From Chryseobacterium glaciei (lineage in GTDB: Bacteria; Bacteroidota; Bacteroidia; Flavobacteriales; Weeksellaceae), in NCBI RefSeq assembly GCF_001648155.1, contig NZ_CP015199.1, positions 558,001 through 622,000 on the forward strand: a DNA stretch of 64,000 bases, in the 5' to 3' direction. The position numbers and the translations under genes are program-made. This document shows, in pieces, positions 4,225 to 62,348 of the stretch (position 1 is the stretch's first letter; the number at the start of each line of letters is the position of its first letter). Under the pieces are notes generated by a model. The model had not been told where the DNA came from. It was given only the letters and a program-made list of their open reading frames with translations, and made no database searches.

Positions 4225-5062
4225 ACTATTAAAACTCGAATATTACAAAAACCTGAATTATAGACCATTCAAGGTTTTCACCATCCTTTATTTTGCTATT
4301 TTGGTAGCACTTCTTTTTATTGGACTCGTAGATTTGGATGTTTTTGGAGCTACTATTAATTTAAAACAGCAGGGAATTTATAATTTCCCGGAAATCTGGA
4401 ACTTTACCACTTGGATTGTTGCTTTATTAAAGATATTTCTAGGATTGATCATTGTTTTTTCAATCTCGCAGGAATTCAGCAACAGGATGTTTAAACAAAA
4501 TACGATTGACGGACTGAGCAGAAAAGAATTTATTGCTTCAAAACTATTAACGATTGCGGTTTTTACGATTGTTTCTACTCTTCTTGTATTTATCATCACT
4601 TTATTTTTAGGTCATACTTATTCAAAGAACACAGATTCTGAGATGGTTTTCAAGGAAATATTCTTTATTGGGAACTATTTTGTAAAGCTTTTTACTTTTT
4701 TCTGCTTCCTAATGTTTCTTTCTGTTTTACTGAGAAAATCGATGTTTGTCTTCCTTGGTTTCTTTGTCTATTGGATCTTTGAAGGAATATTAACGGCTGT
4801 AGAAATATTTCAAAAAGTTCGCGGTACGCAGGAATTAGAAAGAATGAAGATCATGAAAGATGATTTTTTCCTTACTCATCTTCTCCCGTTAGAAAGTATG
4901 TCGAGCCTTATTCCTAATCCGATGATGAGATTAGATATGGCTAAAATGATGGGATTAAAATACGAATTCACCTATCCTACAGAAAGTTTAATTGCCTGTA
5001 TCATTTGGTGTGTGATTTTCATATTCGGATCTTATTGGATCTTGAAAAAGAGAGATTGGTAA
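4217..5062 (+). CDS. ABC transporter permease
   Basis: A 281-residue membrane protein with about six hydrophobic segments (near residues 20-40, 65-85, 115-135, 155-170, 175-195 and 255-275), the layout of ABC-2 type permeases. The segment SNRMFKQNTIDGLSRKEF after the second helix is the usual conserved cytoplasmic loop of this family (N/R...G.sR...f). It overlaps the preceding ATPase gene and is followed by a terminator, so the operon has two genes. Confidence 0.85.
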   Translation: MLKLLKLEYYKNLNYRPFKVFTILYFAILVALLFIGLVDLDVFGATINLKQQGIYNFPEIWNFTTWIVALLKIFLGLIIVFSISQEFSNRMFKQNTIDGLSRKEFIASKLLTIAVFTIVSTLLVFIITLFLGHTYSKNTDSEMVFKEIFFIGNYFVKLFTFFCFLMFLSVLLRKSMFVFLGFFVYWIFEGILTAVEIFQKVRGTQELERMKIMKDDFFLTHLLPLESMSSLIPNPMMRLDMAKMMGLKYEFTYPTESLIACIIWCVIFIFGSYWILKKRDW

Positions 5063-9339: not shown

Positions 9340-9424
9340 ACAACCCTAGCCCCGATTGAAGAGAAAATCCTTTTTTGAAAAAAAAAGATTGCAACGGAAA
9401 GCGGGAAATAGCTCCTAAAAAGAA
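9340..9424 (+). ncRNA. Flavo-1-like small RNA, copy A
   Basis: Begins ACAACCCTAGCCCCGATTGA and ends GCGGGAAATAGCTCCTAAAA. The same framework (ACCCTAGCCC, GAT.GAA, then GGA.AGC.GGA, AGCTCCT) recurs at 26531 with a quite different interior, as expected of an RNA with conserved ends and a variable hairpin. CTAGCCC can pair with GGG.AATAG near the 3' end. I recall this pattern as the abundant flavobacterial Flavo-1 RNA motif, but could not check it against a model. It stands alone between divergent genes. Confidence 0.5.
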
Positions 9425-52970: not shown

Positions 52971-53984
52971 CTAATCAGGAACAATCAAATTTTCATAATT
53001 CTGGCTTCCTGATTTAAATTTTTCTTCCATTCTTAAACGTAATTTTCTAGGTTTATGCACAATCAGACAATTTCCAAATCCCAGTAAAAGTCTTTCCAAT
53101 TCGTTGTTTATTTGCACACAGATCTTAAAAATAGTGCCTTCCTCATTTTCACTGATAATTTCCTGACTTTTATGCAAAGGTTTTGTTTTTACATACGGAG
53201 CGTTAGAAGAATCAACAAAAAAGACAACATTTCTGGGTTCCATCGTTGGCGAAACGGTTACTCCTACGATATCTTTAAAATATTCGTCACCATCCAGATC
53301 TTGGTCAATAAATTTAATTTTTTCATCGGTTTCAATGCTTTCCATTCTATCCAACGCCAGATTGTACATTTTTCCTTTATGGAGACAGATCAGAAACCAG
53401 CGATTATTAAATTCCTTTAATAATTGAGGATGCACAACAAAATTACTCGATTCTCTTGCGTTGAAGCTTTTATATAGAATATTTAAAACCTTTTTATTTA
53501 ATATTCCTTCATACAAAACGTCAATATGCTCCAACCCTTTCAACTGCTCATTTTTATCTAAATGAATTATTGATTTTTGATTGGTTGAATGTATAGAATC
53601 CTCCAATTTTTGAATCACTCCATTCATCTCTTTGAACATTGAAAAATCTTTGAACTGCTTTAAAATCTGCACCGCATTATTCATCGCCTTTAAATCACTT
53701 TCATTCACAGAAATATTATGAATGCTGTAATCCGGATCACTGTAACGATAATATTTTCTTTCGTAGACCTCAATCGGAGCTTCATAACCGAATTTTTCAC
53801 TTCGCATATTTTGCAGATCGAGTTGCACAGTTCGTTTGCTGACAAAAGATTCTTTGCCTTCAAATTCAAACAAAGCTTCAGAACATTCATCAATTAAATC
53901 TTCTAAAGTGTATTGCTTGTATTTGTTTTTAAGACATTTATCAAGCGTTTTGTAGCGGATAAGAGCATTTTTGTTGGATGACAT
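52971..53984 (-). CDS. WYL-domain transcriptional regulator
   Basis: A 337-residue regulator. Residues about 1-80 form a winged-helix region (RYKTLDKCLKNKYKQYTLEDLIDECSE, RTVQLDLQNMRSE). The WYL domain follows (VLNILYKSFNARE ... FVVHPQLLKEFNNRWFLICLHKGKMYNLALDRMESI) and then the C-terminal WCX-like part. WYL domains are thought to bind nucleic-acid or nucleotide ligands and often control defence or RNA-repair genes. It lies next to the rtcB locus, transcribed away from it, and is a candidate regulator of it. Confidence 0.9.
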   Translation of the reverse strand: MSSNKNALIRYKTLDKCLKNKYKQYTLEDLIDECSEALFEFEGKESFVSKRTVQLDLQNMRSEKFGYEAPIEVYERKYYRYSDPDYSIHNISVNESDLKAMNNAVQILKQFKDFSMFKEMNGVIQKLEDSIHSTNQKSIIHLDKNEQLKGLEHIDVLYEGILNKKVLNILYKSFNARESSNFVVHPQLLKEFNNRWFLICLHKGKMYNLALDRMESIETDEKIKFIDQDLDGDEYFKDIVGVTVSPTMEPRNVVFFVDSSNAPYVKTKPLHKSQEIISENEEGTIFKICVQINNELERLLLGFGNCLIVHKPRKLRLRMEEKFKSGSQNYENLIVPD

Positions 53985-54020: not shown

Positions 54021-54170
54021 AATCGCAAAGGCGCAAAGATTTTAACAACTATACTTTTTAAGGCGCAAGGATTTTATCTTCGATAAAATTTAGCTGGACA
54101 ATTTGCTGAAAATCTATGATTTTCTTGCGCCTTAAAAACAGCTTATATTAAAAAAATTGCGCCTTTGCGT
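54021..54170. repeat. MITE-like palindromic element, copy 1
   Basis: Outer inverted repeat GCAAAGGCGCAA/TTGCGCCTTTGC (54025-54036, 54157-54168), inner inverted repeat TTAAGGCGCAAG/CTTGCGCCTTAA, and a central hairpin ATTTTATC/GATAAAAT. The same element, better preserved, lies at 55997. The two copies bracket hopJ and rtcB. No coding frame. Confidence 0.82.
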
Positions 54171-54183
54171 TTATAACATAAAT

Positions 54184-54516
54184 TTATTTCTTTGTCAAAG
54201 CTTCACCTTCAAAAGAAATCCCCTCCCAACCGAATTCGATGAAATTTCTGATGTTTTGATGATCTGTTCCTTCAGGATTTTTCAAGACATCTTCTCTGTA
54301 AAATTCTCCGAAAAGGTTTAAAACTTCTTCTTTTGATAAATTATTCAATTTTGCAAAACTGAAAACCTTGCAAGAACCATTATTCTGATCTGCTTCATTT
54401 ACGGTATTTCCGTTGGTGAATTTTGTTGGCGTGAAATCGTAGTTTTTATCAATATATGAGATTACCTCTTTAAATTGAATCGTTTTAGGAGAAGTCTTTA
54501 ATTGTTCTAATAACAT
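54184..54516 (-). CDS. HopJ-family protein
   Basis: A 110-residue protein that matches the HopJ family: FKEVISYIDKNYDFTPTKFTNG, NNGSCKVFSFAKLNNLSKEEVLNLFGEFYREDVL, NIRNFIEFGWEGISFEG. The name comes from a Pseudomonas type III effector, but the family is common as a plain cytoplasmic protein in bacteria without that system, as expected here. Function unknown. It is divergent from rtcB. Confidence 0.88.
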   Translation of the reverse strand: MLLEQLKTSPKTIQFKEVISYIDKNYDFTPTKFTNGNTVNEADQNNGSCKVFSFAKLNNLSKEEVLNLFGEFYREDVLKNPEGTDHQNIRNFIEFGWEGISFEGEALTKK

Positions 54517-54523
54517 TTTTTAA

Positions 54524-55993
<1,470 letters not shown>

Positions 55994-55996
55994 TTG

Positions 55997-56163
55997 TTGG
56001 TCAATCGCAAAGGCGCAAAGATTTTAGTGACTATACTTTTTAAGGCGCGAGGATTTTATCTTCGATAAAATTTCATACTGCATATTTTGCTGAAAATATT
56101 TGATTTTCTTGTGCCTTAAAAGCATAATTAATTTCAAATCTTTGCGCCTTTGCGATTGACCAA
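55997..56163. repeat. MITE-like palindromic element, copy 2
   Basis: A 167-bp element with 28-bp perfect terminal inverted repeats (55997-56024 and 56136-56163; core TCGCAAAGGCGCAAAGATTT). Inner arms TTAAGGCGC/GTGCCTTAA and a central ATTTTATC/GATAAAAT hairpin match copy 1 at 54021. It starts 3 bp after the rtcB stop codon. No transposase. Confidence 0.88.
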
Positions 56164-56241: not shown

Positions 56242-56353
56242 GGAGTAGTAGCTCAGATGGTTAGAGCAACAGATTACTTTTCGCTTTTGGCAAATAAAAG
56301 TTCCTGTAAAACTTCAAAGTTGTGGGTCGCAGGTTCGAGTCCTGCCTACTCCT
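56242..56353 (+). ncRNA. tRNA-like RNA with a helix in place of the anticodon loop
   Basis: Acceptor stem GGAGTAG/CTACTCC (56242-56248, 56346-56352), D arm GCTC/GAGC, and T arm GCAGG-TTCGAGT-CCTGC are those of a normal tRNA. The anticodon arm is not: ACAG (56269-56272) is followed by ATT, then ACTTTT-C-GC, a TTTTG loop, GC-AAAT-AAAAGT and TC-CTGT. There is no 7-nt anticodon loop. An extra AACT-TCAA-AGTT hairpin precedes the T arm. ACAG can alternatively pair with TTGT at 56320-56323. The grafted helix recurs in permuted form downstream. Probably not a translation tRNA; more like a Y RNA or decoy. Confidence 0.8.
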
Positions 56354-56367
56354 CAAAATAAAATTAA

Positions 56368-56528
56368 GGCAAAGAAAGTTCCTATTTGATTTACACATTT
56401 ACTTTCCGCCATTTTACAAATTACTAGGCAAAGGGAGTTCCTATATTTGGATAATTACTCCCCGCTTTTTATAAAACTATAGGTAAAAGGAGTTCCTATA
56501 TACTTCATTAAAAGAACATACTCCTCAC
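56368..56528 (+). ncRNA. Array of three hairpins sharing the grafted helix motif
   Basis: Units start at 56368, 56427 and 56482. Each reads GG(C/T)AAA, a 6-nt arm ending AGT, then TCCTAT, a loop of about 13-20 nt, the matching arm ACT..., C and GC or AC. Arms are GAAAGT/ACTTTC, GGGAGT/ACTCCC and AGGAGT/ACTCCT, so pairing is kept while sequence changes; the outer pair GC/GC becomes GT/AC in unit 3. AAA and TCCTAT are constant. The array ends 22 nt before the 583-residue protein gene, so it may be its leader or separate RNAs. Confidence 0.75.
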
Positions 56529-56550
56529 TTATTTTTTTAAATTAAAAACA

Positions 56551-58302
56551 ATGAAAACATTAAAATTATTCAACGCTGTATTAGCCAAAAAATCTGATGA
56601 AAAGCCATTCATTTCAAATGAGGGTTTTATCATTGAATCTGATGCACTTTGGGCTAAAAAAGAAATTATTTCTTATTATTCAAAAGAAAAACTGAATGGA
56701 AATGATTTAAACAAAACCTTTCATAAATCTTGGCAGAAAATCAAAGAAAGTACTAGAATTGAATTGTTAATTGAGCAAATCAACCACTATATTTCAACGT
56801 ATGGAAGTAATTTTCAGAATGAAATTTATATTCCAAATGAAGTATTGAATGTTCCTGATTTGAAGTTAACTTTTAAAGTAATTAAAGCCTATTCACAAGA
56901 AGAAATGCAGAAAAAATGCCTTTCTCTTTTAAAATCAGGTATTGCTTTGAAAGAAGAAACGATTGATGATTTGCTTTATATTTTGCATACAGAATTGGAA
57001 TATGATTTCACAGGAAAAGAAAATATCCGAAACAAAGAAGCGATTATAAAAATTGCCGATCTATACGATATTTATCCTGAAAATCCGGTTGAGTTTTTCC
57101 GTTACGTGATCTATAAAACGACAAACACAACGCTTTTAATTAAAAACGATGATTTGATTGATTTAATTAAGCAAAGTCATTTTAATCCAACCTACTTATT
57201 TGAAAGTTTTGGATTGGAAAAACAGGCGGAGATCTTTAACAGATTTAAACCTTTATTTTTAGCTTATAAAAAGAGAGCTCCGAAAACAATCAATAAAATT
57301 TCGAAGCTGTCAAAAGTGTATCATCAACCATTAATTTCGAATCCATTAAATAATGCCACTAATATTTTGTTGGAAAACAGCGATTTACACTGGTTGGAAA
57401 ATGCAACGCCTTTTGCTTTGTTTAAAGCTTTATCGGCTTGTTACTCAAGAATGTATGGTCAGGATACTTTTGTCTATAAAATCAGAAACGGAAAATCATG
57501 GACGAAGAAAGGAACTCCTACTTCTGCGAATGAATTAAATTATGATTTTATCTTAAATTATTTAAAATCAAAATATAATCTTTCCGAAAAGAAGATGTAT
57601 TTCCCTAAAGATGTAGAATTTGGTTTACCAACTTCAGAGAAAATGTTTGTTGGAAATATTCCGACCGGAACGAGATTTTATGGAGAAAGACTAGCGATTG
57701 GAATTTATTGGGAAAATGCTTGGGGAGCGAATGATCTCGACCTTTCCGGATTGAATATCGCAGGAAAAATTGGATGGAATGCAGCTTATAATCAAGATAA
57801 CGGACAATTAATGTACTCCGGAGATGTGACCTCTGCTCCAAACGGTGCGGTAGAATATCTTTACTCCAACAAGTATTTAAATACTCCAACGCTTGTGATG
57901 AATAGTGTTTTCTCCGGAGATGCCAATTGTGGTTATAAAATCGTTATCGGAAAAGGAGATGATATTTCCTACGATTATATGATGAATCCTAATAACCTCT
58001 TTGCTGAAGCTAAGTGTAACTCGGTTCAGAAACAGACGATTTTGGGAATGCTATTACCGAAAGATGGAAAACAATGTTTCGTCTTATTGAATTTCGGAGC
58101 AGGAAATTCACATGTTTCGGGAACTTCTGAAGTTTCTACAATGGCGACAAATGCGCTGTATCAGCAATGGTATCAGCCAGTTTCTTTTAATCATTTGATG
58201 GAAGAACTGGGCGCAACGATTACTTCAGAAAAAGAAGAAGCGGACTTTGACTTCTCTTTGGAAACCTTGGAGAAAGATAGTTTTACCAAGATTTTTAAAT
58301 AA
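56551..58302 (+). CDS. 583-residue protein of the rtcB locus, family not recognised
   Basis: The N-terminal half (about 1-330) is largely helical with repeat-like segments and many Lys. The C-terminal half (about 345-560) is beta-rich: GIYWENAWGANDLDLSGLNI, GKIGWNAAYN, YSGDVTSAPNGAVEYL, FSGDANCGYKIVIGKG. The DLDLS...YSGD pattern is reminiscent of TerD-type beta sandwiches, but I am not sure of this. No TROVE or vWA motif was found. Its place after a tRNA-like RNA and hairpin array, next to rtcB, suggests an RNA-binding scaffold comparable to Ro protein. A terminator follows. Confidence 0.8.
   Translation: MKTLKLFNAVLAKKSDEKPFISNEGFIIESDALWAKKEIISYYSKEKLNGNDLNKTFHKSWQKIKESTRIELLIEQINHYISTYGSNFQNEIYIPNEVLNVPDLKLTFKVIKAYSQEEMQKKCLSLLKSGIALKEETIDDLLYILHTELEYDFTGKENIRNKEAIIKIADLYDIYPENPVEFFRYVIYKTTNTTLLIKNDDLIDLIKQSHFNPTYLFESFGLEKQAEIFNRFKPLFLAYKKRAPKTINKISKLSKVYHQPLISNPLNNATNILLENSDLHWLENATPFALFKALSACYSRMYGQDTFVYKIRNGKSWTKKGTPTSANELNYDFILNYLKSKYNLSEKKMYFPKDVEFGLPTSEKMFVGNIPTGTRFYGERLAIGIYWENAWGANDLDLSGLNIAGKIGWNAAYNQDNGQLMYSGDVTSAPNGAVEYLYSNKYLNTPTLVMNSVFSGDANCGYKIVIGKGDDISYDYMMNPNNLFAEAKCNSVQKQTILGMLLPKDGKQCFVLLNFGAGNSHVSGTSEVSTMATNALYQQWYQPVSFNHLMEELGATITSEKEEADFDFSLETLEKDSFTKIFK

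Positions 58303-61475: not shown

Positions 61476-62348
<873 letters not shown>

Follow-up and report, generated by a model that had tools for sequence, protein, structure and literature searches.

A tRNA-like RNA whose anticodon loop is replaced by a hairpin module, beside rtcB in Chryseobacterium glaciei: a probable Y-RNA-like tRNA mimic

What could be the role of a 112-nucleotide (nt) RNA that has the body of a tRNA, lies between an RNA ligase gene and the gene of a 583-residue protein, and carries a long hairpin where its anticodon loop should be? We addressed this question in a 64,000-nt stretch of Chryseobacterium glaciei DNA (NCBI RefSeq assembly GCF_001648155.1, contig NZ_CP015199.1, positions 558,001 to 622,000 of the forward strand), hereafter the window, in which the RNA occupies positions 56242-56353 of the plus strand, with rtcB upstream of it. 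We give a probability of roughly two in three to the reading that it mimics a tRNA in the manner of a Y RNA and docks on the neighboring TerD-domain protein within an RNA-repair regulon, with bare copies of the docking module serving feedback. A first-pass annotation of the window had described a non-decoding tRNA-like RNA beside rtcB and the 583-residue gene and had likened it to the Y RNAs that mimic tRNAs; the analysis below bears out both the description and the comparison.

The Rfam tRNA model matches positions 56242-56353 exactly (50 bits, E=1e-7 in the 64-kb search), and ARAGORN calls no tRNA anywhere in the window. The acceptor stem (56242-56248 with 56346-56352), the D arm (56251-56267) and the T arm (56329-56345) are as first annotated, and a discriminator U stands at 56353. 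The anticodon stem is reduced to ACA (56269-56271) paired with TGT (56321-56323), all on the plus strand; the 49 nt between its two sides contain no 7-nt anticodon loop and hold the proposed docking module (plus strand, 56274-56307), giving the order acceptor, D, module, T, acceptor. This module, recognized by direct repeats shared with hairpins downstream, has as its core TTACTTTT-C-GC, a short loop, and then GGC-AAA(T)-AAAAGT-TCCTGT. A tRNA body in which a hairpin module replaces the anticodon loop is thus confirmed. The module strands first proposed, ACTTTT-C-GC and GC-AAAT-AAAAGT, are present; the pairing of ACAG with CTGT that was to enclose them did not stand, since those letters occur in 9 of 56 distinct same-genus relatives, TTCCTAT takes that site in 42 of the 56, and the conserved stem is ACA/TGT. 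An additional small hairpin described ahead of the T arm (AACTTCAAAGTT) is found in the window and is visible by eye in part of the relatives only.

The case for this structure relies on comparison and not on folding energy, since the fold of the RNA is only modestly better than that of shuffled sequences (z -1.39), and the same is true of the three hairpins described below (z -1.76, -2.25 and -1.46). In an alignment of 24 same-genus sequences, from which one decayed copy (L019) was omitted, the 26 proposed pairs are formed in 100% of 598 cells, and four of them, three in the acceptor stem and one in the T stem, are altered on both sides. The covariation score of this alignment was reached by none of 500 shuffles and its four double-changed pairs by 14 of 500, in shuffles that ignore the relatedness of the sequences; all 500 show more pair types than the real alignment, and sliding the columns gave at most one double-changed pair. 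A covariance model built from the alignment was then run on 72 chosen loci, and its 74 matches were aligned; this larger alignment is fitted to the structure and hence biased towards it, and the raw sequences show the same exchanges. Among the 56 distinct sequences located by a 583-residue gene, the first anticodon-stem pair is A-U in 46, G-C in 8, G-U in 1 and unpaired in 1; the second is C-G in 45 and U-A in 10, with 1 gap; and the third is A-U in 43, G-U in 9, G-C in 1 and unpaired in 3. The ACA/TGT stem is therefore formed in 55, 55 and 53 of the 56 rows, with two-sided changes from A-U to G-C and from C-G to U-A, and the acceptor, T and anticodon stems are all maintained in relatives through double base changes.

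The first-pass annotation asked for compensatory changes in the extended arm. Two-sided changes are present in the tRNA stems; the module stem of the tRNA-like copy is nearly invariant within the genus, with one one-sided change, and is swapped in a second genus (genomes G238 and G361) for another paired stem, ACTATT with AATAGT or AATGGT, and in one copy ACTGTT with AATAGT. In these two genomes the module is borne by two different tRNA bodies in tandem. No normal tRNA was found at the homologous loci examined, and a form of 70-78 nt is missing from all 56 distinct relatives collected, which together with the two-sided stem changes rules out a normal tRNA, an intron-bearing tRNA or a pseudogene. 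These features of the sequence support the view that the RNA is not a decoding tRNA. In one genome (L113), an insert of about 45 nt splits the T loop of the RNA.

What the first-pass annotation had overlooked is that the module is repeated three times between the tRNA-like RNA and the 583-residue gene, with the order of its strands reversed. These standalone hairpins, all on the plus strand, are H1 (56368-56410; GGC-AAA-GAAAGT-TCCTAT ... TTACTTTC-C-GCC), H2 (56427-56466; GGC-AAA-GGGAGT / ACTCCC-C-GCT) and H3 (56482-56529; GGT-AAA-AGGAGT / ACTCCT-C-ACT), the last of which ends 21 nt from the start codon. Their first strand has the form GGC-AAA-helix-TCCTAT and their second the form TTAC-helix-C-GCC. 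The tRNA-like copy is closed at its GGC/GCC end and turns its TCC/TTA end towards the tRNA; the standalone hairpins have these two ends exchanged. This swap keeps the paired site and alters the backbone, which fits recognition of the site itself by a partner. To measure the pairing we collected 134 distinct standalone hairpins by their anchors, leaving three helix positions free; a survey that required full pairing was excluded as evidence of pairing. All three free positions are paired in 122 of the 134, the other 12 lacking at least one of these pairs, and the outer three pairs are formed in 132; of the 9 distinct types, 5 pair fully, a count that 39 of 10000 shuffles reached. At L045 and L047, upstream of a homologue of the 583-residue gene, the loop of one standalone hairpin holds a T-arm-like stem-loop (CCGGTTCGATTCCGG in L045), resembling a partial tRNA mimic.

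The candidate partner is the protein encoded directly downstream (plus strand, 56551-58302), with a helical N-terminus and a TerD-like C-terminus (about residues 377-531) that fits the TerD beta-sandwich. Its predicted model is of middling confidence (pLDDT, the predicted local distance difference test, 67.8), and neither this model nor that of a distantly related 746-residue protein (E 2.2e-4 over 516 columns) has a Foldseek match in the PDB at an E-value of 0.001 or better. For the N-terminal half, as part of the full-length model, the structural matches listed include no convincing one. A TROVE domain is absent from the 583-residue protein by Pfam and by profile comparison, and the 746-residue protein likewise gives no sequence signal for it. 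Pfam, NCBIfam NF041916 and an anti-phage library assign the 583-residue protein to no family, nuclease or other; the library also left the 746-residue, RtcB, RlaP, TROVE and Band_7 proteins unmatched.

The named close relatives of the 583-residue protein are from Chryseobacterium, and it is matched in 112 of 173 same-genus genomes, gene fragments (e.g. in G149 and G165) included. The covariance model reaches 66 bits or more on a tRNA-like RNA in 93 of these 112, and in each case the RNA shares the contig of the gene, with its nearest edge at most 409 nt upstream; ordinary 73-nt tRNAs in the same listing score about 57 bits. The filters of this search were strict enough to lose weak matches, and the listing is cut off below about 57 bits. 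At that score it is found in none of the 61 genomes lacking a protein match, after removal of the 127-133-nt matches next to Ro60 genes, discussed below, and of one match (G107) that belongs to the 746-residue family. A truncated remnant of the RNA without the protein gene, with 60 bits, was seen in G013 (L078) and stands outside this count. In the other 19 of the 112 genomes no match reached 66 bits, and among those inspected L020, L021, L023, L026 and L028 retain standalone hairpins. The rtcB gene occupies 54602-55993 of the plus strand (Pfam RtcB 117 bits), and RtcB coding sequence flanks 85 of 87 loci of the 583-residue gene, some genomes being counted twice. At the loci of G238 and G361, rtcB was not found in the 1.5-kb flanks, and another reading frame seems to end upstream there.

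Taken together, these observations suggest the following mechanism. An anticodon-less tRNA body carries, on its anticodon stem, a proposed docking module of two strands for the next-door protein, and the RNA may be processed like a tRNA. The TerD-domain protein would bind the module, as suggested by the linkage of the genes and by a module that recurs and co-varies. The resulting ribonucleoprotein (RNP) would present an intact tRNA elbow and acceptor. Enzymes that act on tRNA, such as nucleases, modification enzymes, RlaP or RtcB, could in this way be tethered to damaged RNA, a role that YrlA plays for Rsr and PNPase. Through the leader hairpins, spare protein may lower its own synthesis.

The Y-RNA-type tRNA mimic appears to be the best comparison for this RNA, and likeness of design supports it. 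According to passages of PMC8394870 and PMC7790460, YrlA has D, T and acceptor elements, its basal stem binds Rsr and its tRNA-like part binds PNPase, and some rsr/Y RNA genes are located in rtcBA operons. The two RNAs, as far as these sources describe YrlA, thus share a tRNA-like domain, a protein-binding stem on the anticodon side and an occasional place in rtcB RNA-repair operons. The Rfam consensus of YrlA (RF02553) runs protein stem, T arm, capped acceptor, D arm, protein stem, which is a circular permutation of the window design: the backbone is opened on the anticodon side and closed at the acceptor, and its own 5' and 3' ends make the protein stem. The window RNA, in contrast, has free acceptor ends, a closed anticodon-side module of another sequence, and a TerD-like protein instead of a TROVE protein. 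The gathering score of RF02553 (69 bits) is not reached in the window, and a distant relative (L045) gives 25.6 bits. In score, in topology and in its putative cognate protein the RNA is therefore not a member of the YrlA family. At the Rfam gathering scores, the window matches the tRNA and Flavo-1 models alone.

Also comparable with the window design are the loci of a 458-residue Ro60/TROVE protein in the same genus (12 of L075-L088). Seen by eye, they share with it an unpermuted tRNA body upstream of the gene, an insert in the anticodon arm, and a standalone hairpin with the strands of the insert; they differ in the length of the RNA (127-133 nt), in the module (UUACUUCG and GGUGUGA) and in the TROVE protein, which Pfam recognized in the one examined. 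The tmRNA (RF00023) also has a tRNA-like domain with its anticodon replaced. The window RNA, unlike tmRNA, has no mRNA-like part, and no tmRNA match reaches the gathering score in the window; the model gives 30.3 and 27.7 of the required 47 bits on the tRNA-like RNAs of two relatives. Burroughs and Aravind reportedly linked, in 2016, a tRNA-like RNA to an SPFH/Band-7 RNA-repair scaffold protein. Going by this description, that RNA is set apart by its tie to Band_7, whereas the window RNA is tied to TerD; a Band_7 gene does lie in this genome, in a Band_7 and TROVE locus about 450 kb from the window. A survey of jumbo phages, in the part of PMC7824862 that bears on this, describes ROT/TROVE as an RNA-repair platform with a tRNA-like partner and RlaP as ligase-associated. 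Our literature search showed no title on this system among those listed, and as it did not extend to the principal publications on the Y RNAs of bacteria and on the genomics of RNA repair, a prior description is possible; it also found no paper naming SCO0854 or MXAN_6230.

Related arrangements were seen around the TROVE and Band_7 genes. Near TROVE genes of a 505-residue type there are YrlA-like copies below the threshold (36.6-39 bits against 69) at L129 (769-881, minus), L130 (5278-5391, plus) and L132 (334-439, minus); those of L129 and L130 contain AUACUUCG, close to the UUACUUCG of the 458-residue Ro60 loci. In the Band_7 leader (L221, G000:C1:1066900-1069200, minus strand, about 970-1115), behind the fourth operator site described below, two permuted tRNA bodies, each made of a T arm, a capped acceptor and a D arm, seem by eye to stand in tandem; after them comes an anticodon-arm-like hairpin containing a GUC triplet, and the YrlA score there is sub-threshold (33.9 of 69 bits). 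Downstream of Band_7 (L129, G000:C1:1061500-1067500, about 4450-4740, minus), a tRNA-like sequence was noticed by eye whose anticodon region is extended by a very long insert (AGCCTTG ... CAAGGTT), and L132 has a similar one.

A tRNA body retained after the loss of the anticodon loop could also be a decoy that occupies anticodon nucleases or other tRNA-directed toxins and shields the real tRNAs, the protein merely stabilizing it; passages of PMC7790460 propose YrlA as a competitive inhibitor of a nuclease. We consider this unlikely, as it leaves unexplained the module copies that lack a tRNA body and the genomes that have such copies only. Similarly improbable, in our judgment, is a leader acting purely in cis, in which the tRNA-like RNA and the hairpins would regulate downstream translation through protein feedback or tRNA-processing enzymes. 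The position of the modules directly upstream of the gene, the last one close to the start codon, suits such a leader, as does the presence of the array where rtcB was not found in the flanks; the free acceptor ends, conserved stems and discriminator-like base, however, resemble those of a releasable RNA, and a simple leader would not need the reversed build of the tRNA-like module.

The first-pass annotation had also suggested a precursor that undergoes cleavage in the long arm and religation by RtcB. The adjacency of rtcB speaks for this, but the aligned sequences yield no splice product with a conserved 7-nt anticodon loop, the arrays of G238 and G361 have no rtcB in their 1.5-kb flanks, and the module also stands alone without a tRNA body, so that we regard it as very unlikely. 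Least credible of all is an RNA antitoxin array of the type III toxin-antitoxin kind with the 583-residue protein as toxin, which would account for tandem RNA repeats directly upstream of a probable binding protein but is at odds with a TerD-like protein of no matched family, nuclease or other, and with repeats that are hairpins with a tRNA body rather than the short pseudoknot units reportedly found in such systems.

The Y-RNA-like reading gains breadth from the 746-residue family of RING/TerD proteins, a homologue of which is known from Flavobacterium johnsoniae. We took the best 80 of 414 relatives in named genomes (L137-L216), all from Bacteroidota; most of the hosts are Flavobacterium, and the others include Chryseobacterium, Aquimarina, Tenacibaculum, Myroides, Dysgonomonas, Taibaiella and Saprospiraceae. 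Within 1 kb upstream, all 80 loci have at least one module of the form GGUCAA-helix-UUACUUC (363 in total), and in 72 of the 80 our covariance model matches at least 100 nt on the same strand, which marks a tRNA-like RNA. A partner candidate exists for 310 of the modules and for none of the other 53; in 141 of the 310, the helix is fully paired with the bases preceding AAUUAYC, whereas the controls averaged 46.6 and did not exceed 61. Those tRNA-like copies that were examined visually show the reversed strand order here too. These arrays thus resemble that of the window in their modules, in this reversal and in a distantly related protein, and differ from it in the module sequence (GGUCAA-helix-UUACUUC / helix-AAUUAYC) and in a RING-like Cys motif, present in 11 of 12 aligned proteins of the 746-residue family and absent from the 583-residue branch. 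The 746-residue protein scores 100.9 bits against the cut-off of 600 of NF041916, the MXAN_6230/SCO0854 RING family. At some loci (L139 and L192), a standalone module can be seen to enclose elements in the order of YrlA, namely a T arm, then a capped hairpin like an acceptor, then a segment like a D arm. The fold of L139 (z -3.86) agrees with the T arm and the capped hairpin and not with the D arm; that of L192 is unremarkable (z -1.14). The flanks covered for the 80 loci contain a homologue of the WYL regulator of the window in 51, RtcB in 35, RlaP in 8, Band_7 in 3, HopJ in 1 and TROVE in none.

Outside its genus, the 583-residue family was found only in G238 and G361, in searches with matches in 27 of 296 genomes of the order, weak ones included, and in 7 of 395 of the phylum. 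Four weak matches outside the genus have E-values of 3.7e-4 to 8.4e-4; that of G327 aligns with the 746-residue family at 24-25%, and the listed open reading frames of G190 and G236 show by eye no sign of a relative of that family.

There may exist across Bacteroidota a second RNP system of the Ro60/Y RNA design, for which we see the chances as evenly balanced. Its TerD proteins would have a Ro60-like architecture, its module would be grafted on tRNA bodies in both circular permutations, sometimes within one transcript, its bare copies would feed back on the mRNA, and it would form one regulon with RtcB, RlaP, Ro60 and Band_7. The questions touched here are why Y RNAs mimic tRNAs and what the RNA-repair operons of bacteria repair. 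A tRNA-mimic design that recurs with a protein family dissimilar in sequence to Ro60 and with a swapped backbone suggests that the constant parts, namely the tRNA elbow, the acceptor and the anticodon-side module, are likely what matters, and the related systems in named Flavobacterium and Chryseobacterium isolates make the question accessible to experiment.

The regulon is suggested by an operator/promoter-like element of 39 base pairs, which occurs on the plus strand before rtcB (54556-54594) and before rlaP (61548-61586), the gene of a nucleotidyltransferase of an RNA-repair family (plus strand, 61602-62348; Pfam RlaP 237 bits). Its pattern, TACGYAAAAANANTGCRYA-N10-TACTTTGCAT with at most three mismatches, was derived from the sites of rtcB, rlaP and the TROVE gene. 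In the whole genome of 4.87 Mb it has four sites, before rtcB, before rlaP, before the Ro60/TROVE gene and in the Band_7 leader, the reversed pattern having none; the fourth, about 0.8 kb before the Band_7 gene, was outside the derivation set. A looser expression is found in 11 of the 12 loci of the 458-residue TROVE protein. The element ends there 12-16 nt upstream of the tRNA-like RNA, which places a possible transcription start close to the 5' end of the RNA. The same expression occurs in 4 of 5 TROVE loci, 0 of 2 loci of the second genus, 1 of 80 loci of the 746-residue family and 2 of 44 loci of the 583-residue gene, whose flanks do not all extend to the rtcB promoter, with none in the reversed control. 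With another promoter spacing, the counts for these sets are 0 of 12, 4 of 5, 0 of 2, 15 of 80 and 0 of 44, again with none in the reversed control. Two short dyad patterns gave nothing in the window.

Divergent from rtcB lies the gene of a WYL-domain protein (minus strand, 52971-53984; Pfam WYL), which we would guess to be the regulator that binds the shared element. Its matches in the anti-phage library are to two WYL models, both placed there in CRISPR-associated signalling, and less strongly to a single Cas3c model. Between the WYL gene and rtcB is a HopJ-family gene (minus strand, 54184-54516; Pfam), a homologue of which adjoins rtcB at L137 too. On either side of the rtcB region, at 56003-56160 and 54022-54175 of the window, visual inspection shows a copy of an inverted-repeat element (CGCAAAGGCGCAAAGATTTT...) that is missing from the spacers of several relatives. 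Flavo-1 RNAs (RF01705) occur in the window (9344-9412, plus) and at L129 (2099-2174), L130 (3803-3893) and L131 (1053-1139); in these three TROVE loci the Flavo-1 RNA lies directly beside the TROVE gene, on the opposite strand.
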